Source of the DNA: Streptomyces sp. NBC_01260
GTDB lineage: Bacteria > Actinomycetota > Actinomycetes > Streptomycetales > Streptomycetaceae
Direction: 5' to 3'
Assembly (NCBI RefSeq): GCF_036226405.1
Contig: NZ_CP108464.1
Coordinates: 4,216,001 to 4,280,000 of the forward strand
DNA length: 64,000 nucleotides
In this document: positions 14,808 through 25,814 of the stretch, in pieces
How the letters are laid out: each line of letters begins with the position of its first letter
How positions within the stretch are numbered: the first letter of the stretch is position 1
Position numbers and translations under genes: made by a program
Notes under the pieces: model-generated
The model's input: the letters and a program-made list of their open reading frames with translations, nothing else
What the model was told of the DNA's origin: nothing
Databases searched by the model: none

Positions 14808-15230
14808 TCAGCCGCGCACCACCGTCACCGGGCACGGCGCGTGCTGGGTGACGTGGAGGCTGACCGAGCCGAGCAGGGTGGCCTTGAAGCCGCTGTATCC
14901 GCGCGCGCCCACGACCAGCAGACTCGCGCCCTTGGCCCGGTCCAGCAGGGACTGCGCCGGGTTGCCGATCACCACGACCTTGCTGACCGCTGCGGCACCC
15001 ACCGCGCCGAGGGCCTCCTCCAGCGCCTCGGTGAGCGACACGGTGGCCAGGGCCTGCGGGTCGAAGTCCTCCGGCAGGCCCGGCATCATGGACGCCCAGC
15101 TGGTGGAGGGGTACTCCCAGCTGTTGACGGCCTCGACCGTGTCACCGGTCAGCTCTGCCTGGCGTACGGCCCAGTGCAGTGCCTTGATCGACGACTCGGA
15201 GCCGTCAACGCCCACCACGATCCTGCCCAT
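14808..15230 (-). CDS. Universal stress protein (UspA family)
   Basis: A 140-residue single-domain Usp. It opens with IVVGVDGSESSIKALHWA (ATP-binding Asp) and ends with VVGARGYSGFKATLLGSVS followed by CPVTVVR, which fits the G-2x-G-9x-G(S/T) nucleotide-binding pattern, so it is of the ATP-binding type. Such proteins accumulate in stress or stationary phase. It is a single gene ending at a bidirectional terminator. Confidence 0.95.
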   Translation of the reverse strand: MGRIVVGVDGSESSIKALHWAVRQAELTGDTVEAVNSWEYPSTSWASMMPGLPEDFDPQALATVSLTEALEEALGAVGAAAVSKVVVIGNPAQSLLDRAKGASLLVVGARGYSGFKATLLGSVSLHVTQHAPCPVTVVRG

Positions 15231-15345: not shown

Positions 15346-15999
15346 TCAGGTCTGCCGGAGGCCGGCCAGTTGCTCCTCGAACGGGACCACCTCGTCGTCC
15401 AGGCCGAGGGCCCTGGACGCCCCGGAGACGGCCCGGCCGCCGGTGATCGCGCTCGCCAGCTCACCGCCCGCGCGCCGGATCCTTGCCGGCAGTCCGTCGG
15501 TGTACCCGTCGCCCGACGCACCCCAGTCCTCCGACGCCGCGTACACCGACGTCGGCAGCGTGACGGCCCGCAGGTAGCCGAAGAGCGGGCGCATCGCGTG
15601 CTCCAGCACCAGCGAGTGCCGGGCGGTCCCGCCGGTCGCCGCGACGACGACGGGCTTACCGGTCAGCGCGGTGTTCTCGACGAGGTCGAAGAACGACTTG
15701 AACAGCCCGCTGTACGAGGCGGTGAAGACCGGGCTGACGGCGATCAGCCCGTCCGACTCCGTCACCGCCGCGATCGCTTCCTCCAGCGTGGCCGAGGGGA
15801 ACCCGGTCACCAGGTGGTTGGCGATGTCGACGGCCAGGTCGCGCAGCTCGATCACCCGGATCTCGACCGGGCGGTCCTGCTCGGCGTCCAGCCGGTCCCG
15901 GGCGGCCCCGGCCAGCCGGTCGGCCAGCAGCCTGGTCGACGAGGGGCGGCTCAGCCCGGCCGAGACGGCGACGATCCTCAGTGGTTCGGTGGCGAACAC
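15346..15999 (-). CDS. NADPH-dependent FMN reductase (SsuE-like flavodoxin fold)
   Basis: A 217-residue flavodoxin-like protein. IVAVSAGLSRPSSTRLLADRL at the start is the FMN phosphate-binding loop, and SPVFTASYSGLFKSFFDLV is the family segment that contacts the isoalloxazine ring. The GTG start is 4 bp after the stop of the upstream LLM oxidoreductase gene, so the two form an operon. The pairing suggests that this reductase supplies reduced FMN to the two-component flavin monooxygenase next door. Confidence 0.88.
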   Translation of the reverse strand: MFATEPLRIVAVSAGLSRPSSTRLLADRLAGAARDRLDAEQDRPVEIRVIELRDLAVDIANHLVTGFPSATLEEAIAAVTESDGLIAVSPVFTASYSGLFKSFFDLVENTALTGKPVVVAATGGTARHSLVLEHAMRPLFGYLRAVTLPTSVYAASEDWGASGDGYTDGLPARIRRAGGELASAITGGRAVSGASRALGLDDEVVPFEEQLAGLRQT

Positions 16000-16003
16000 G
16001 GTG

Positions 16004-17089
16004 TCAGCTCTCCTTCGCGTTGGCGGCGACGACGGCCGGGTGCAGGGGCGCGGACTCGGGGACCCCGGCCGGCCGCAGGGCGGCGAACTCCTTGCGCAGC
16101 ACCGGTATGACCTCCTCGCCGAGGATGTCGAGCTGCTCCAGGACGGTCTTCAGCGGCAGCCCCGCGTGGTCCATCAGGAACAGCTGGCGCTGGTAGTCGC
16201 CGACGGCGTCCCGGAAGGACAGCGTCCGCTCGATGACCTCCTGCGGGGAGCCCACGGTCAGCGGGGTCTGCTGGGTGAAGTCCTCCATCGAGGGGCCGTG
16301 CCCGTAGACCGGTGCGTTGTCGAAGTACGGGCGGAACTCCCGTACCGCGTCCTGCGAGTTCTTCCGCATGAACACCTGGCCGCCGAGGCCCACGATGGCC
16401 TGCTCGGCGGTGCCGTGCCCGTAGTGCGCGTACCGCTGCCGGTAGAGGCTCACCATCTTCTTCGTGTGCTCGATGGGCCAGAAGATGTTGTTGTGGAAGA
16501 AGCCGTCGCCGTAGTACGCGGCCTGCTCGGCGATCTCCGGGGAGCGGATGGAGCCGTGCCAGACGAACGGCGGGACGCCGTCCAGCGGGCGCGGGGTCGC
16601 GGTGAAGGACTGGAGCGGCGTACGGAACGTGCCCTCCCAGTCGACGACCTCCTCGCGCCACAGCTTGTGCAGCAGGGCGTAGTTCTCGATGGCAAGCGGC
16701 ATGCCCTGGCGGATGTCCTTGCCGAACCAGGGGTAGACGGGGCCGGTGTTGCCGCGGCCCATCATCAGGTCGACGCGGCCGTCGGCGAGGTGCTGGAGCG
16801 TGGCGTAGTCCTCGGCGATCTTCACCGGGTCGTTGGTGGTGATCAGCGTCGTGGACGTGGACAGGATCAGGTTCTCGGTGCGGGCGGCGATGTAGCCGAG
16901 GGTGGTCGTGGGCGAGGACGGGACGAACGGCGGGTTGTGGTGCTCGCCGGTCGCGAAGACGTCGAGGCCGACCTCCTCCGCCTTCTGCGCGATGGCGATC
17001 GTGGCCTTGATCCGCTCGTGCTCGCTCGGCGTCCTGCCGGTCGTCGGGTCGGTGGTGACATCCCCGACGGTGAAGATCCCGAACTGCAT
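16004..17089 (-). CDS. LLM-class flavin-dependent oxidoreductase (luciferase-like)
   Basis: A 361-residue bacterial luciferase-like TIM barrel. MQFGIFTVGDVTTDPTTGRT begins the first strand, FATGEHHNPPFVPSSP is the family active-site region, and GRVDLMMGRGNTGPVYPWFG and PFVWHGSIRSPEIAEQAA are further barrel motifs. It uses reduced FMN made by the downstream reductase gene to oxidise an unknown substrate (typically sulfonates, alkanes or xenobiotics). ATG at 17089, with GGAGG 10 bases upstream. An AT-rich divergent promoter region lies between it and the small membrane protein gene. Confidence 0.9.
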   Translation of the reverse strand: MQFGIFTVGDVTTDPTTGRTPSEHERIKATIAIAQKAEEVGLDVFATGEHHNPPFVPSSPTTTLGYIAARTENLILSTSTTLITTNDPVKIAEDYATLQHLADGRVDLMMGRGNTGPVYPWFGKDIRQGMPLAIENYALLHKLWREEVVDWEGTFRTPLQSFTATPRPLDGVPPFVWHGSIRSPEIAEQAAYYGDGFFHNNIFWPIEHTKKMVSLYRQRYAHYGHGTAEQAIVGLGGQVFMRKNSQDAVREFRPYFDNAPVYGHGPSMEDFTQQTPLTVGSPQEVIERTLSFRDAVGDYQRQLFLMDHAGLPLKTVLEQLDILGEEVIPVLRKEFAALRPAGVPESAPLHPAVVAANAKES

Positions 17090-17100
17090 GGCGCCCGCCT

Positions 17101-17140
17101 CCAATATTGTTGAACATTGAACTATGTGAACACACCCTAC
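17101..17140. promoter_or_regulatory. AT-rich divergent promoter with GTTCAA repeats
   Basis: The minus strand reads GTTCACA, GTTCAAT and GTTCAAC in succession within 25 bases, in the only AT-rich part of the 156-bp gap before the LLM oxidoreductase. One -35/-10 reading is TTGTAG-17-CAATGT. The repeats may bind a regulator; the regulator gene is not adjacent. Confidence 0.35.
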
Positions 17141-17245
17141 AACGGAGTACCCCCTCTCTCTATTCCACGAGGCCGTCCGGCGCCGGGTCTGGGTACGCTG
17201 AACGGCTACGGAGGCCGCCCGGGCCCCGCGTCGACGGAGGCAGAC

Positions 17246-17443
17246 ATGAGCGGGACCGGCCCCGCGCGAGACGGCGGCGCGCCGCGGCCCGCGCGCGAGA
17301 CGGACCGCGACTACGGCGGCGGCAGCGAGGCCTGGAAGGAACGCGGCGTCGCCCTGCGCGTCTTCATCTACGTCTTCGCCACGCACCTGTTCGCGGGCTT
17401 CGTCTGGATTCTGTTCTACGTGGGCGAACACGCCAAGAAATGA
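17246..17443 (+). CDS. Small single-helix membrane protein (DUF6126-like)
   Basis: A 65-residue protein with a charged N-terminal half (ARETDRDYGGGSEAWKERG) and one C-terminal membrane helix (LRVFIYVFATHLFAGFVWILFYVG). It resembles DUF6126, a Streptomyces family of unknown function. The ATG is chosen because it follows GGAGG at 17236-17240; upstream in-frame codons lie in the promoter region. Confidence 0.7.
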   Translation: MSGTGPARDGGAPRPARETDRDYGGGSEAWKERGVALRVFIYVFATHLFAGFVWILFYVGEHAKK

Positions 17444-17597
17444 GCGACCCGGCGGGGATCAGGCCGCCGGGCCGCCGGGCTCCTCGGTGTGCGGGCTCCG
17501 CCCGCCGAGCAGGCGCTCCCGGCCCCACGCCCCGAGCGGGCTCAGTGCCTCGTTGAATGTGCCGTGCCGTGGGGCCGGGGCGCGCTACCATCCCCGC

Positions 17598-17639
17598 ATG
17601 ACCTCCGTACCGTGCCGGAACTGGTGGCGCTCCTCCTAG
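17598..17639 (+). CDS. trpS leader peptide MTSVPCRNWWRSS (Trp-Trp control codons)
   Basis: A 13-codon reading frame with tandem TGG TGG at codons 9-10 (17622-17627), ending in TAG. It has no convincing ribosome site, but a TACCAT -10-like box at 17586-17591 puts the start of transcription near the ATG, so it may be translated from a leaderless end. It lies 136 bases before the tryptophanyl-tRNA synthetase start and is followed by a hairpin terminator. Ribosome stalling at the Trp codons would couple charged tRNA-Trp to readthrough. An inducible TrpRS under ribosome-mediated attenuation is known in S. coelicolor. Confidence 0.8.
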   Translation: MTSVPCRNWWRSS

Positions 17640-17650
17640 GAGCGGCCACC
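17624..17650 (+). promoter_or_regulatory. Leader 1:2 pause hairpin overlapping the Trp codons
   Basis: GGTGGCGCTCCT (17624-17635), which includes the second Trp codon, pairs with AGGAGCGGCCACC (17638-17650) with one bulge. This is segment 1:2 of a classic attenuator. Segment 2 can instead pair CGGCC (17643-17647) with GGCCG at 17669-17673, inside the left arm of the terminator, giving a weak antiterminator. Confidence 0.65.
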
Positions 17651-17666
17651 TCTTCTGCGCGGGACC

Positions 17667-17697
17667 AGGGCCGTTCGACATGGACGGCCCTTTTTCT
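17667..17697 (+). terminator. Attenuator terminator upstream of trpS
   Basis: AGGGCCGTTC pairs with GGACGGCCCT (17667-17676 and 17682-17691) around a 5-base loop and runs into TTTTT at 17691-17695, followed by CTCT. A U-tract this clear is unusual in Streptomyces. It stands 79 bases before the trpS ATG. Confidence 0.85.
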
Positions 17698-17775
17698 CTG
17701 CCCTCTTGCGGGTACGGGCTCCTCGCCCGGCGGGCCGTCCTCCACGCACACACCGACGCGAGGAGAGACCCACTC

Positions 17776-18834
17776 ATGAGCACGACCTGTGCCGACGCCG
17801 CCCCGGAGACCACTCTGGAGGAGCGAATCCGGCGCGACCCCGCCCGCTTCCGGGTCCTGACCGGCGACCGGCCCACCGGGGCGCTCCACCTCGGGCACTA
17901 CTTCGGCACCCTCCACAACCGGGTGCGGCTCCAGGACCTCGGGGTGGAGACGTTCGTCGTCATCCCCGACTACCAGGTGCTCACCGACCGGGACGTCGCC
18001 GAACGGCTCGTCGCGACCATGGAGGGGCTGCTGCTGGACTACCTGGCCGTCGGCATCGACCCGGAACGCTCGGTGATCTTCAACCACAGCGCCGTGCCCG
18101 CGCTCAACCAGCTGCTGCTGCCGTTCCTGAGCCTGGTCTCCGTCGCCGAACTGGGCCGCAACCCCACGGTCAAGGACGAGATCGCGCACTCCCGGCAGTC
18201 CTCCGTCAGCGGTCTGATGTTCACCTACCCGGTCCATCAGGCGGCCGACATCCTGTTCTGCAAGGGCAATCTGGTGCCGGTCGGCCAGGACCAGCTGCCC
18301 CACCTCGAAGTGGCCCGGACCGTCGCCCGGCGGTTCAACGAGCGCTACGGACAGGTCTTCCCGGAACCCGAGGCGCTGCTCTCCGCCGTGCCGCAGCTGC
18401 TCGGCACCGACGGCACCAAGATGAGCAAGAGCCGCGCCAACTCCATCGCGCTGAGCGCCGACGCCGACGAGACGGCACGCCTGATCAAGGGCGCGACAAC
18501 GGACGCCGACCGCCACATCACCTACGACCCCGAGGCGCGGCCCGGCGTGTCCGGCCTGGTGCTGCTGGCCGCGCTCTGCCTCGACCGCGATCCGCACGAC
18601 GTGGCCGGGGAGATCGGCGGCGGGGGCGCGGCCGCCCTGAAGCGGACCGTGACCGACGCGGTCAACACCCGGCTGGCACCGATGCGGGCCCGACGGGCCG
18701 AGTACGCACGGGACATGGGGTACGTCCGGTCCGTGCTGCGGGCCGGCAACGAGCGCGCCAACGCCATCGCCGACGCGACACTGACGCAGGTGCGGGAGGT
18801 CATGGGGGGTCTGGTACGGGGCCACTCGTCCTGA
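17776..18834 (+). CDS. trpS: Tryptophanyl-tRNA synthetase, attenuation-controlled
   Basis: A 352-residue class Ic synthetase with HIGH-type motif GALHLGHYFG (about 36-45), DYQVLTDRD, TYPVHQAADILF, VPVGQDQLPHLEVAR and KMSKS in DGTKMSKSRANS (about 215-222). The ATG follows AGGAGA. The leader peptide and terminator just upstream suggest that it is made only when charged tRNA-Trp is scarce. Streptomyces often has two TrpRS genes, one inducible and resistant to the TrpRS inhibitor indolmycin; the leader makes this one a candidate for the inducible copy, but resistance cannot be read from sequence by eye. It ends 4 bp from the convergent NAD-binding gene. Confidence 0.95.
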   Translation: MSTTCADAAPETTLEERIRRDPARFRVLTGDRPTGALHLGHYFGTLHNRVRLQDLGVETFVVIPDYQVLTDRDVAERLVATMEGLLLDYLAVGIDPERSVIFNHSAVPALNQLLLPFLSLVSVAELGRNPTVKDEIAHSRQSSVSGLMFTYPVHQAADILFCKGNLVPVGQDQLPHLEVARTVARRFNERYGQVFPEPEALLSAVPQLLGTDGTKMSKSRANSIALSADADETARLIKGATTDADRHITYDPEARPGVSGLVLLAALCLDRDPHDVAGEIGGGGAAALKRTVTDAVNTRLAPMRARRAEYARDMGYVRSVLRAGNERANAIADATLTQVREVMGGLVRGHSS

Positions 18835-20879: not shown

Positions 20880-23800
20880 TCAGTGGTCCCCGGGGGGCCC
20901 GGACGGCGGCCGGGCGAGGAGCTGGCGGGGGTCCGCCGCCCGGCTGATCGCCGATTCGACCGCCGCGATCCGGTCCGCGAGCAGTCCCAGTGCGGCCACC
21001 GCACGGGTCACGGGGTCGCCGTCCGGCCCGCCGAGCGCCTGGGCGCGGACGTAGCCGGCGGTGACGGCGGACCAGCGGGCGGCCCGCTCCGGACCGAGTG
21101 TTCCGCGCAGTGCGGCGAGCTTCAGCAGGGCGGCCTCCGCGCCCGAGGTGAGCGTCTGGGCCTCGCCCGCGTAGTGGTCGTCGATGACGTCGGACAGTTC
21201 GGCGTCGTTCATCACGGGCACGATCCGCTCGGCGATCCGGTTCATGTTGCGGTACGAGCCCTGCAGCCGGAACGGCGGTTCGGTGCGCGTCGTGTCCGTC
21301 TGCGCCGCCGAGGCGATGTAGGCGGCGTTGACGGCGAGAACGGTGTCGCGTGCGGTGAGCAGATGGCGCAGCACGGCGACGACGCGTTCCACCTCGACGG
21401 GCGCGTACGGGTGCTCCAGCCGGTTCGCACCGGAGGCGGGTTCCGTGCCGGCGGCGAGCCGCAGCAGCAGTGCGAGGTCGTCGCGGGACCGCCCGGCGAG
21501 CGGGGCCAGCACCGGGTTGGCGGTCAGCGCGTTCTCCACGAAGCTCAGCGCGAAGACGTCCTCCCGGCCGCTCAGCACCTCGCCGAGATTCCAGACGTCG
21601 GCCCGGTTGGCGAGCATGTCGGGAATCCGGAACCGCTCCCCGGACTCGGTGTAGGGGTTGCCCGCCATGCACACCGCGAACCGCTTGCCCCGCAGGTCGT
21701 AGCTGCGCGGCTCGCCGTCCCGCACGCCCTCGATCCGGCGGGTGGCGTCGCAGAGCGGGATGAACTTCTGGAGCAGTTCCGGTGAGGTGTGCTGGATGTC
21801 GTCGAGGTAGAGGAGGGTGTTGTTGCCCGCCTCCAGCGCGAAGTTGATCTTCTCGATCTCCTGGCGCGCGGTCGCGCTGCGCGCCTGCGCGGGGTCCAGC
21901 GAGGTCACGTCGTGGCCGAGGTTGGGTCCGCTGATCTTGACGAGGACCAGGCCGAGCCGGTCGGCGACGTACTCCATCAGCGTCGTCTTGCCGTAGCCGG
22001 GCGGCGACACGAGCAGCAGCAGGCCCTGCGAGTCGGTGCGCCGGTCGGCGTCGGCGGTGCCGAGCTGCTTGGCGAGGCTGTCGCCGATCAGCGGCAGGTA
22101 CACCTCGTCGAGCAGCCGGTTGCGGACGAACGCCGACACCACGCGCGGCCGGTGGTCGTCCAGCCGCAGCCGGGTGCGCTCGGCTGCGGCCAGTGCGGTG
22201 CGCCGTCGCTGGTAGGCGCGGAAGCCGGGCGCCGTGACCGTGCGGAACTCCTCGGTACGGGAGAGGAGTTCGTCGATCCGCAGGGGCAGCCGGCCCCGGT
22301 CGATGCGCGGGTGGACACCGAGGAGCCCGTCCACGGTCGCGGTGAGCGGCGCCTCGCCCTCGTACCGGCGCACGGTGGGTTCCGGGCAGAGCTCCACGGC
22401 GACGGCCTCCGCGAGATCGCCGTCGTCGAGGTCCGAGCCGCTCGCGCGGGAGTACGCGCTGAGCCACCCCTCGACGAGCTGGCGGCGGGCCGGCAGGTCG
22501 TCCCCCAGGGCCGCGAGATCCTCGTCGTAGGCCGAAGTGCCGGTGGTACGGCGGAACTTGTCCAGGAAGGTGCGGACGCCGGCACTGGTGACGAACCCCT
22601 CGGGGCCGCTCGTCAGTTCCTCGAAGAGGTACGAGGCGACGGCCCGCGAGCCCTCGCCCGCGATGACGCCCGCCCACTCCTCCTGGAGCGCGGCGACGGC
22701 CGGGGCGAGCCCGAAGGTGTCGCGGGCGCGGGCCAGCGAGCGGGCCCGGCGGGTCCAGGAGGTCCGTCGGGCCTCGTCCGCCCGGTGCGCCCAGAAGAGC
22801 TGGGCGGCGGCCCGGACGGCGGGCGGGCAGCGCAGCAGTCCGGCTCCGGCACGCAGGCGCAGCAGTACGGTCAGGATCGCTGCGGCGTCCTCGTCGTGGA
22901 CGCCGCGCTGATACCCCTCGTCGTACGCGGCTGCCGCGGACTCCCTGACCAATGCGGCGAGTTCGTCCGGTTCCAGGGAGGCCAGCCGGTCCGCGCCCTG
23001 CTCGGCCAGCAGCCGGGCGGCCAGGTGCTCGCCGCGGTAGACGGACGGGGACTCGGAGGGCAGCTGCTGGTCCCAGTACGGGCGGGTCTCGACGAAGGCC
23101 GGGTCGGTGACCGGCATCCGGTAGTCGGTCCCGGTGACCGCGAACGCGAGCCCGTCCCCCTGGGGGACCAGCGTCAGATCGAACGGCTGGGTGTTCACCG
23201 CGAACCGATGGCGGCCCAGCCGGATGGTCGCCCCGCCGTCCGCGTACAGCTCGCTGCGGTCGCGCAGCGCCCGCAGGGCCTCCTGGCGGGCCGCGAGCAG
23301 CTGCCCCTCCAGCTCCTCGGCCCGTACCGCGTCGCCGAGTTCGCGCAGCTCGGCCGCGGTGCGGCGGACCTTGGCGACCATCGGGTCGGAGGCGAAGCAG
23401 GTGTGGACGGCGTCCGCGTCGGGCAGCGCGGCGCTGCGGCGGGCGACCGTGTCCAGCACCCGGACGGCGGACTGGGCGAGGCGCTCGGTGCGGCGGGCGA
23501 CGGCGTCCTGAAGGGTCTGCCTGCGGGCCGAGAACGCCTCGTACACCTCCGTCCGCCGCTCGCCCAGCGCGGTCAGGAAGTCGTCGAACTCGGCGAACCG
23601 CGCCTCCAGGTTCTCCAGCTGGAGCAACAGCCGCGCGAGCTGCTCGTCGCAGGCACCGGGGGTGCCCGCGGCGGCCAGCGCCCCCGTCACCGCCTGTCCC
23701 AGCAGGGCGAACTCGGCGGCGAACTCGGCCCGTCCCTCGTGGTCGAGGAGTTCACGGCGGCGGGCGTCGAGCGTGGCGCGGGCCCGGTTCACCCCGCCGA

Positions 23801-25814
23801 GCACCTCGGCGATCCGCTCCAGGATCGAGGTACGGACCACGCCGTCACCGATGTCGAGCCCGGTGACGACGTCGGTGACCGTGCTCAGCCCGTCCGTCAT
23901 CCCCGCCAGCCGGTCGCCGAGCGCGGCGGCGTCGGTGACGGTGGCGAGCGCGGACGCCTCCTCGGTGAGGCGGGCGATGTCCTCGTGGTACCCGGCGAAC
24001 GCGCCGTCCCTGGCCAGGAACGCGACCGCGCGCCGGCCGGCCGAGGCCAGGTCGTCGGCGGTGGCGGCGGTGAGTTCGGCGATCCGCTCGGTGTCCGCGT
24101 ACCGCATCTCGCCGAGCGTGGCCAGATGGCCGTGCGCGGTGCGGAGTTCGGTGAGCCGGGTGACCCAGTCGGCGGCGTACTGCGGGGCCTCGCCGCGGAC
24201 CCGGCGCACCAGTGCGGTGATCCGGTCCGCGCTCTCGGCGAGCGCGTCGGCGGCCTGCCGGGTCAGTTCCTGGACGCCCTCGAACTCTGCGAGGACCTGC
24301 TGCGCGGTGTCCCGGAGCGCGGTCAACGGGTCGGCGAGAGAGCCGAGTTCGCTGTCCCCCAGCCAGTGGTAGCGGTCGGTGGCCCGGGTGCAGTCGGCCA
24401 CCAGCCGCGCGTAGACCGCGCCGGTCGGGCTGGTCGCGTCGGCGCTGTGCGCGAGCGCGAGGCAGTCGGAGATGCCGCGCACCAGGTCGGCGTTGCCGAT
24501 CCGGGCCAGCGGGCCGGTGCCGGCGGGGCGGGAGGCGGCGTAGGTGTCGGAGACGTACGGCGTCTGCCAGCGCTGCAACGGGTGCACCCGGGCCGGTCCG
24601 GCGTCCGGGCCCTCCACCGGTTCCCGCAGGAGTACGAGCGTCCCGTCGTCGAGCAGGGCGTGGCCGCGGCCCTGGAGCGGGGTGGCGACCTCCTGGCGGA
24701 TCACGTTGTAGGGGAGCAGCAGGCTGCGGCCGTTGTCCCGGGAGCGGAACGCGTAGAGGACGTCCTCGCCGTTGGGGGAGCGGACGGCCCCCTCGAAGGC
24801 GGGCTCGGTGAGCGGCCGCGCGATGTCGAAGGTCTTGGCGGCGCCGGTGGTCAGGTAGAAGCCGCCGGGGAAGATGATCCCCTGGTCCTCGGGGAGCCGG
24901 TGGCAGGCCGGGCCGATGCCGTCCAGCCGCAGCACGGTGCCCAGGAGCGAGTTGAACACGAGGTGGCGGGTGGCCTCCTCCTTGTACGGGCGGATGCGGA
25001 GCAGGACCAGCGGGCCGAGCTCCGCGTACTCGACCTCGGCGTCGGCGAGTGACTGGAGGGGCTCGGTGACCGGCTCCCGGTAGATCCCGTCCGGGGTGTC
25101 CGTGTCGTTGACGGTCTTGACGGTGAGGTGGCCGCCGAGGGTGGTGACGTACAGCCGCGCGTCGCTCCCGTCGCCCGTACCCCCGATCGCGATGTGCGGG
25201 TGCCGGCCGGGGAGGTGGGACTCGCGTCCGGCGACGGTCCAGGTGAAGTCGTGCGACGGCGGGAACACGTGGTCGCGTTCGCCGCGGGCGTCGAGGAACG
25301 CGCCGGGTGTGCCGTCGGCGTCGAGGGCCCAGCGCAGGACGCGGATGTCCTCGGCGCTCTCGCCGGTCCGGAACACGGCCAGGAGCCGGCCGTCGGTACG
25401 GCGCAGCCGCAGCAGCCGGGCGTCGCGGTAGTAGCGGTGCAGCCCGTTGAACTCGCGGACGAACGCCTCGTCGGTGAGGAGCGGGCCGGTGCCGGGTGTC
25501 AGCTCGGCGTCGTACAGCGCGAGTACGTCGTCGACGGCGGGCTCGTCGCCCCGGCCGGGGCCGCGTTCGAAGCCGAACAGCAGCCGGCCGCCGATCGCGA
25601 CGAGGTCGCGGGGGGTGGAGGGCTGCTCGGTACGGATGCGCTCGCTGCCGAGCAGCCGCAGTCCGGTGGAGCCGAACTCCTCCGTGCGGCGGGAGTTGAG
25701 CGCCTCGGCCCGGCGGGTGAGCTCCGCGGCCTGGGTGCCGAGCCGGCGGCGCAGCACGTCGTAGGCCCCGGCCTCCACGGGGCCGCCCGGGGGCGGCGGG
25801 GTTCCGGTGTCCAT
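20880..25814 (-). CDS. Giant DUF3686/AAA+ ATPase, annotated elsewhere as DNA repair ATPase
   Basis: 1644 residues. The N-terminal 500 residues form a beta-rich domain of DUF3686 type (LRLLGSERIRTEQPSTPRDL, LLFGFE, RYYRDARLLRLRRTDGR). About 500-1000 is long, Ala/Arg-rich and helical, probably coiled coil. The C-terminal AAA+ module has Walker A VSPPGYGKTTLMEYVADRLG near residue 1270 and Walker B TLLYLDDIQHT near 1338, followed by FAVCMAGNPYTESGERFRIP, a sensor 1-like Asn. It resembles MoxR/dynein-type AAA+ more than repair enzymes; the repair label in databases is weakly founded. It lies downstream of the flotillin gene and 40 bp upstream of the channel-like gene. Confidence 0.8.
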   Translation of the reverse strand: MDTGTPPPPGGPVEAGAYDVLRRRLGTQAAELTRRAEALNSRRTEEFGSTGLRLLGSERIRTEQPSTPRDLVAIGGRLLFGFERGPGRGDEPAVDDVLALYDAELTPGTGPLLTDEAFVREFNGLHRYYRDARLLRLRRTDGRLLAVFRTGESAEDIRVLRWALDADGTPGAFLDARGERDHVFPPSHDFTWTVAGRESHLPGRHPHIAIGGTGDGSDARLYVTTLGGHLTVKTVNDTDTPDGIYREPVTEPLQSLADAEVEYAELGPLVLLRIRPYKEEATRHLVFNSLLGTVLRLDGIGPACHRLPEDQGIIFPGGFYLTTGAAKTFDIARPLTEPAFEGAVRSPNGEDVLYAFRSRDNGRSLLLPYNVIRQEVATPLQGRGHALLDDGTLVLLREPVEGPDAGPARVHPLQRWQTPYVSDTYAASRPAGTGPLARIGNADLVRGISDCLALAHSADATSPTGAVYARLVADCTRATDRYHWLGDSELGSLADPLTALRDTAQQVLAEFEGVQELTRQAADALAESADRITALVRRVRGEAPQYAADWVTRLTELRTAHGHLATLGEMRYADTERIAELTAATADDLASAGRRAVAFLARDGAFAGYHEDIARLTEEASALATVTDAAALGDRLAGMTDGLSTVTDVVTGLDIGDGVVRTSILERIAEVLGGVNRARATLDARRRELLDHEGRAEFAAEFALLGQAVTGALAAAGTPGACDEQLARLLLQLENLEARFAEFDDFLTALGERRTEVYEAFSARRQTLQDAVARRTERLAQSAVRVLDTVARRSAALPDADAVHTCFASDPMVAKVRRTAAELRELGDAVRAEELEGQLLAARQEALRALRDRSELYADGGATIRLGRHRFAVNTQPFDLTLVPQGDGLAFAVTGTDYRMPVTDPAFVETRPYWDQQLPSESPSVYRGEHLAARLLAEQGADRLASLEPDELAALVRESAAAAYDEGYQRGVHDEDAAAILTVLLRLRAGAGLLRCPPAVRAAAQLFWAHRADEARRTSWTRRARSLARARDTFGLAPAVAALQEEWAGVIAGEGSRAVASYLFEELTSGPEGFVTSAGVRTFLDKFRRTTGTSAYDEDLAALGDDLPARRQLVEGWLSAYSRASGSDLDDGDLAEAVAVELCPEPTVRRYEGEAPLTATVDGLLGVHPRIDRGRLPLRIDELLSRTEEFRTVTAPGFRAYQRRRTALAAAERTRLRLDDHRPRVVSAFVRNRLLDEVYLPLIGDSLAKQLGTADADRRTDSQGLLLLVSPPGYGKTTLMEYVADRLGLVLVKISGPNLGHDVTSLDPAQARSATARQEIEKINFALEAGNNTLLYLDDIQHTSPELLQKFIPLCDATRRIEGVRDGEPRSYDLRGKRFAVCMAGNPYTESGERFRIPDMLANRADVWNLGEVLSGREDVFALSFVENALTANPVLAPLAGRSRDDLALLLRLAAGTEPASGANRLEHPYAPVEVERVVAVLRHLLTARDTVLAVNAAYIASAAQTDTTRTEPPFRLQGSYRNMNRIAERIVPVMNDAELSDVIDDHYAGEAQTLTSGAEAALLKLAALRGTLGPERAARWSAVTAGYVRAQALGGPDGDPVTRAVAALGLLADRIAAVESAISRAADPRQLLARPPSGPPGDH

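Follow-up and report, generated by a model that had tools for sequence, protein, structure and literature searches.

In the trp leader of Escherichia coli, tandem Trp codons act through 1:2, 2:3 and 3:4 logic ahead of a biosynthetic operon, and the leader peptide has a ribosome site. Going by the title of their 2020 paper, Canestrari et al. reportedly described leaderless polycysteine attenuators of mycobacteria. Vecchione and Sello are said, again by title, to have described in 2010 (J Bacteriol 192:3565) the ribosome-mediated attenuation of an auxiliary, antibiotic-resistant tryptophanyl-tRNA synthetase (TrpRS) gene, reportedly that of Streptomyces coelicolor. In 2005, Seliverstov et al. predicted attenuators ahead of trpS and leuS in some Streptomyces, and a candidate upstream of trpS2 in S. 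avermitilis is among them (PMC1262725, in the available part of the text). For S. lividans, the trpL2-trpS attenuator is described, in the available part of its report, as having a 13-residue leaderless leader and two hairpins; no U-rich stretch was found there (Droste et al. 2021, PMC8079986).

We analysed a stretch of 64,000 nucleotides from Streptomyces sp. NBC_01260 (the window; all positions refer to it unless stated otherwise), in which a 98-base leader RNA (17598-17695, + strand) lies ahead of a TrpRS gene. By their titles, the 2010 study concerns the mechanism that we propose here and the same kind of gene, and the mycobacterial attenuators use leaderless short ORFs, as predicted for the window leader, but contain Cys codons. 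Against the E. coli trp leader model (Rfam RF00513) the window scored 20.6 bits, below the gathering cut-off of 41. The trpS2 locus of S. avermitilis resembles that of the window in that a classical attenuator is predicted ahead of an additional trpS, whereas the word "leaderless" appears 0 times in the available part of that paper (PMC1262725). The trpL2 system shares with the window a 13-residue leader before trpS, reported to be leaderless in S. lividans and predicted to be so here, but its peptide, MMTRTCTQLWRAA, contains one Trp and that of the window two (PMC8079986, available part). This peptide is identical at 12 of 13 residues to two leaders of the TrpRS lineage that we call type B, and at 4 of 13 to the window leader, which suggests that the S. 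lividans trpL2 gene belongs to type B. The window attenuator is not of the trpL2 type, as both its leader family and its enzyme lineage differ from type B. An exact degenerate pattern back-translated from the trpL2 peptide matched 0 of 291 genomes. The kind of system is already known, from the 2010 title for attenuation of an auxiliary TrpRS gene and from the 2021 report for a leaderless leader, and the window attenuator is a further example. The earlier note on this DNA had called a leaderless leader unusual, a view that must be given up, since trpL2, trpL1 and leuL2 of S. lividans are all reported to be leaderless (PMC8079986, available part). In the literature searched, which did not include the likeliest papers of 2009/2010, there was no report of a leaderless leader on a TrpRS gene of the window's lineage (type C), nor of the outer helix P0.

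The window locus and its TrpRS lineage

The locus comprises a putative -10 box, a short ORF with two Trp codons, three mutually exclusive helices, an outer helix P0 and the trpS gene (Table 1).

Table 1. Features of the trpS leader region in the window
Feature	Position	Strand	Remarks
Putative -10 box TACCAT	17586..17591	+	6 nt, then ATG
Predicted leader ORF MTSVPCRNWWRSS and stop, 13 codons	17598..17639	+	ATG 17598-17600
Putative regulatory Trp codons 9 and 10, adjacent	17622..17627	+	Conserved among relatives
Predicted pause / anti-antiterminator hairpin 1:2	17623..17650	+	17623-17634 with 17638-17650; covers Trp codons
Predicted antiterminator 2:3, 8 bp	17640..17676	+	17640-17647 with 17669-17676
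Predicted terminator 3:4 and U run	17667..17695	+	Stem 17667-17677 with 17681-17691; U run 17691-17695
Predicted outer helix P0	17610..17662	+	17610-17615 with 17657-17662
Shine-Dalgarno sequence GAGGAG of trpS	17760..17765	+	Read in sequence
Auxiliary tryptophanyl-tRNA synthetase, 352 aa	17776..18834	+	TIGR00233

The 13-residue leader with adjacent Trp codons and the pause hairpin over them, both claimed in the earlier note, were recovered, as was the U-tailed terminator; only its distance from trpS had to be corrected, since the U run ends 80 nt, not 79, before the trpS ATG. Free folding of the 98 nucleotides gave -56.1 kcal/mol, compared with -35.6 for shuffled sequences (sd 3.47, z -5.91; 0 of 200 as good), and a terminator scan of 17450-17850 returned one site, where shuffles gave 0.1. 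The predicted energies were -21.5 kcal/mol for 1:2, -13.6 for 2:3 and -18.7 for 3:4 (ten pairs, 17667-17676 with 17682-17691). A strict promoter scan of the same interval found no promoter. Rfam at gathering scores gave 0 matches in the whole window; a relaxed search of 17500-17800 gave six at E <= 10, all under their cut-offs, among them anti-hemB (20 of 49.5 bits, E 0.016) and the above-mentioned Trp_leader (E 0.062). Neighbouring genes encode, according to Pfam, a universal stress protein (14811-15230), an FMN reductase (15349-15999), a luciferase-like monooxygenase (16007-17137), a DUF6126 small protein (17117-17440) and a 1644-residue DUF3686 ATPase (20883-25814).

The trpS product scored 234.3 bits against TIGR00233 (cut-off 176.75) and contains HLGH and KMSKS, which we take to be the synthetase motifs. 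Its best named match, from S. laculatispora, is 96% identical at the protein level, and the nearest solved structures, presumably both from Deinococcus, are 1yi8 and 2a4m, of which 2a4m carries the name tryptophanyl-tRNA synthetase II. The class I W/Y synthetase family occurs at three places in the organism's own genome: the housekeeping TrpRS is 34.7% identical to the window TrpRS, and the third member, 27% alike over part of its length, is presumably a TyrRS. On sequence grounds the window gene is a member of an auxiliary TrpRS lineage, type C. Among 71 genomes of the genus, the housekeeping TrpRS was found in 71, type B in 45 and type C in 16; type B is 45-51% (44-51% in another comparison) and type C 34-38% identical to the housekeeping enzyme (35% for the window gene). 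Types B and C occurred together in 2 of the 71 genomes, with about 10 expected (Fisher p 3e-6, kinship ignored). At E <= 1e-60, the type-C lineage was present in 55 of 295 genomes of the genus. TrpRS relatives also turned up on plasmids and in phage records. SGR_3809 of S. griseus is described as an indolmycin-resistant TrpRS in the available part of PMC6804068; it may belong to type C, judging from the type-C gene of S. griseus BIG105 (L085).

Conservation of the leader and its helices

We examined 137 type-C loci, 57 from a genome search and the best 80 of 365 contig matches (the collections overlap); 27 are duplicates over the first 100 leader nucleotides. The distinct leader sequences number 103, L112 included. 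A leader-finding pattern, built after the first leaders had been inspected, matched an ORF at 130 loci. The leader of L112, whose 5' part is replaced, was rejected as spurious, so that 129 of the 137 loci were counted as carrying a genuine leader. Absence of the leader from orthologous loci, which the earlier note held to speak against its proposal, is thus not what was found. Seven loci had no leader ORF (L048, L050-L054 and L060). At L048 the contig ends 270 nt upstream, and the presence of a leader cannot be judged; L060 (G126:C104) is a degraded second trpS copy, in which the hairpins and Trp codons are kept and the start reads CTG. L050-L054 form one clade nested among leader-bearing genes (support 96), and all five of their genomes also carry a type-B TrpRS, with a predicted leaderless leader in 5 of 5 (L220-L224). 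Pfam annotation of 10 of the 44 ORFs around the leader-less L247 revealed no obvious biosynthetic cluster.

For each leader we took whichever in-frame ATG or GTG gave a length closest to 13 codons, and the 13-codon length of 96 leaders is therefore partly a product of construction. In 77 of the 103 distinct leaders, however, the range of 9-22 codons contains a single in-frame start, which yields 13 codons in 74 of the 77. Adjacent Trp residues are present in 96 of the 103 leaders and a single Trp in six, reading NRW in L014, L017 and L071 (first Trp codon CGG) and QSW in L117, L119 and L135, which come from Actinoplanes and Winogradskya. Among the 96 leaders taken as 13 codons long, the kept residues are Trp10 (96), Trp9 (93), Arg11 (96), Cys6 (90) and Ser12 (87), and residues 2-5, 7 and 8 vary. 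The leader occurs in several families of Actinomycetota, in genera that include Streptomyces, Embleya, Streptosporangium, Microbispora, Nonomuraea, Actinoplanes, Kutzneria and Microlunatus. One genome has, on a single contig, two auxiliary trpS copies about 7.8 kb apart (L035 and L036, G168:C40) with the same 20-residue leader, MTSVQQQTQMQTHLSWWRSS.

The helices were evaluated in an alignment (A1) of 68 of the 103 distinct leaders, from which sequences more than 93% alike position by position and, by name, L112, L017, L033, L032, L045, L094, L107 and L111 had been dropped. The main 1:2 helix was paired in 95.1% of cells, with both sides changed in three of 12 pairs. Helix 2:3 was paired in 98.5% of cells and had 13 double-change cells in two of its 8 pairs (11 and 2), and 3:4 was paired in 96.6% with 9 double-change cells; the counts of these cells in 2:3 and 3:4 were reached by 0 of 500 shuffles, a comparison in which related sequences can do better than shuffles even without structure. 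The number of doubly changed pairs was equalled by 32 of 500 shuffles for 2:3, by 11 for 3:4 and by 51 for 1:2 with its outer part. Shifting the partners cut 2:3 pairing to at most 61%. One position changes in concert across all four strands, reading T-A-T-G in 52 and C-G-C-G in 10 of the 68 sequences; C-G-C-G needs three changes on the tree of the 68 proteins (3-4 in bootstrap trees, never 1 in 200), although the well-supported branches alone leave room for a single origin. In two Embleya leaders (L098 and L109), a 2:3 G-C pair is replaced by A-U, while 3:4 has U-G there. What the earlier note had called a possible antiterminator, the 2:3 helix, is therefore well paired and covaries among the 68 relatives. 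P0 was paired in 90.8% of cells; its 12 double-change cells were reached by 0 of 500 shuffles, and its 5 doubly changed pairs out of 6 were equalled by 34 of 500. Five inner pairs beside 1:2, taken from the minimum free energy fold of nt 1-60, were only 50.9% paired and were dropped for P0.

A simple search detected a terminator at 95 of the 103 distinct leaders. Seven of the other eight match the type-C covariance model R1 over its full length, and the eighth, L130, lay outside the R1 search. The single-Trp leader L017 showed no U-tailed stem in the terminator search; R1 still matches it. Three sequence elements of a ribosome-mediated Trp attenuator were found: a short ORF with Trp codons, mutually exclusive 1:2, 2:3 and 3:4 helices, and an intrinsic terminator before the gene. 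The attenuation layout on a synthetase gene proposed in the earlier note is supported by the conservation of Trp codons, frame and three exclusive helices and by compensatory change, all read from aligned sequences.

The leader start and the type-B comparison

Start codons were chosen independently of the -10 box. TANNNT was found 6 nt upstream of the leader start in 86 and 7 nt upstream in 12 of the 102 distinct leaders with enough upstream sequence (L032 omitted), i.e. in 98 of 102. All other spacings from 0 to 33 nt gave 3 hits in total, and dinucleotide shuffles placed TANNNT at 6-7 nt in a mean of 0.745 of 102 leaders (at most 3 in 200 shuffles). The four exceptions are the spurious L112 and L035, L105 and L122, in which an alternative in-frame start has TANNNT at 6 or 7 nt (L035 was judged through its duplicate loci L100 and L101). 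Shine-Dalgarno (SD)-like words precede 7 of 103 leaders, compared with 14 of 14 trpS genes at loci with a match from residue 1. A -35 element was not clearly conserved, with a best match to TTGAC of 4 or 5 out of 5 in 13 of 98 leaders versus 6 of 98 shuffled sequences (one shuffle each). In S. lividans, the distance from the -10 box to the transcription start averages 6.3 nt and 17% of transcripts are leaderless (PMC8079986, available part). With few exceptions, type-C leaders thus share two traits of leaderless mRNAs, a -10 box some 6 nt from the start codon and the lack of an SD. Because of the spacing in 98 of 102 leaders, the trpS leader RNA is likely leaderless, with its 5' end at the leader start codon, in line with the earlier note's suggestion of a leaderless transcript from the TACCAT box.

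Of the 45 type-B trpS loci we fetched 36. At 35 of these, TANNNT stands 6 or 7 nt upstream of a Trp leader that is 12-15 codons long; no leader was found at L206, a partial type-B match. A comparison scan for a short Trp ORF within 500 nt and TANNNT 3-11 nt before it, which is blind to leadered attenuators, gave 0 of 34 housekeeping TrpRS loci, and none of 9 further housekeeping loci (49 nt of upstream sequence for one of them, another being a repeat) had such a leader. Type-B leaders share the 1:2, 2:3 and 3:4 layout (98.4, 99.2 and 99.6% paired), and these helices show no covariation because they are nearly invariant. The type-B P0 covaries: it is 87.9% paired, and both sides have changed in 7 of its 9 pairs, a number reached by 1 of 500 shuffles. 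In 24 of 35 leaders its outermost pair does not form. R1 matched the leader at 34 of the 36 type-B loci (12-33 bits; 26 at E <= 0.01) and at none of 10 housekeeping loci, but only 16 of the 34 matches score above its off-target matches, which reach 22.6 bits. The two attenuators are compatible with shared ancestry and with convergence alike.

Six of the weaker R1 matches from 61 genomes of the family were read by eye. Five of them, one in the organism's own genome (genome positions 7775557-7775648) and four in other genomes, look like unrelated hairpins. The sixth, L255 (G303:C159:7304-7394), in another genus of the family, has a type-B-like leader, MNVCMLSKRLGWWPA, and a seven-T run before a TrpRS gene. 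For several type-B trpS genes the contig ends close by, and in two single-contig genomes rRNA genes are found nearby, upstream of trpS (in L257/G009 a 16S from 809; in L256/G031 a 23S match from 3472, starting at model position 629).

Proposed mechanism and alternatives

We propose that ribosome-mediated attenuation of transcription, acting through a leaderless leader, controls the auxiliary trpS, and we put the probability of this reading at about 0.88. The transcription start, the ribosome positions and the response to Trp-tRNA are deduced from sequence, conservation, covariation and predicted folds. RNA polymerase would start at the A of the AUG at 17598, and a ribosome would load on the bare 5' AUG and translate the 13 codons. 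With ample Trp-tRNA, the ribosome at the stop codon would cover strand 2 (17640-17647), the free strand 3 would form the terminator, and transcription would end before trpS. When Trp-tRNA is short, through Trp starvation or inhibition of the main TrpRS, the ribosome would stall at codons 9-10 and hide strand 1; 2:3 could then pair, and the polymerase would read on into the auxiliary trpS, whose ribosome site is a separate one. The default state would be off, since without translation 1:2 and the terminator form. The inducer would be a lack of charged tRNA-Trp, which TrpRS inhibitors such as indolmycin may cause.

The predicted folds, with mask limits that assume a normal ribosome footprint, are consistent with this scheme. 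With nt 1-39 or 1-42 masked for a stalled ribosome and RNA extending to 80-88 nt, 2:3 was the best structure (-16.6); with nt 1-54 masked for a ribosome at the stop codon, the full RNA formed the terminator and 2:3 was impossible; unmasked RNA formed 1:2 and the terminator. The full-length RNA prefers the terminator even under the stalled-ribosome masks (-24.8 and -23.5, versus -16.6 for 2:3 at 88 nt), and antitermination must therefore be kinetic. Attenuators usually decide while the RNA is still being made.

The same Trp codons could act from a normal leadered mRNA that starts further upstream, with TANNNT incidental, and the poor conservation of the -35 region would suit such an mRNA. We regard this as improbable, given the fixed box spacing far above the shuffle counts, the scarcity of SD-like words before the leader and the leaderless trpL2 reported in S. 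lividans (PMC8079986, available part). Slightly less probable still is a sensor in the form of a nascent arrest peptide with affinity for free Trp or an antibiotic, which would take the place of Trp-tRNA shortage as the signal. The conserved C-terminal WWRS and Cys6 would fit an arrest peptide, but residues 2-5, 7 and 8 vary, and pairing of the RNA can explain the kept Cys and Arg-Ser, because the Cys codon sits in P0 and the Arg-Ser codons in 1:2, both helices with compensatory changes.

It is hardly credible that the terminator serves only to end transcripts of the DUF6126 gene upstream and that the short ORF arose by chance: the gene is on the same strand, but a conserved -10 box lies between it and the terminator, the Trp codons and the 2:3 pairing are conserved, and the leader is kept over genera. 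A T-box or another catalogued riboswitch, for which only the position before a synthetase gene speaks, is just as hard to credit, as Rfam gave no match at gathering scores in the window and only sub-cut-off matches in 17500-17800. Attenuation from a leaderless leader is therefore the reading that we retain.

The P0 helix joins early leader codons to the spacer between strands 2 and 3. Tentatively, and we consider it rather unlikely, P0 might be a timed lock for leaderless initiation, which forms only after the polymerase has passed this spacer, keeps late ribosomes from the 5' end and directs any uncoupled transcript into termination. If so, P0 would be an attenuator part special to leaderless leaders.

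Sequence comparison by itself indicates that the leaderless start has been retained in the Trp attenuators of spare TrpRS genes across several families of Actinomycetota. Such attenuators would stand on two TrpRS lineages that are rarely together in a genome, and the same scan found none before the housekeeping enzyme. The leader may serve as a small natural system in which to study how the first ribosome on a leaderless mRNA stays synchronized with RNA polymerase; the findings also predict which TrpRS genes would answer to Trp shortage or to TrpRS inhibitors.
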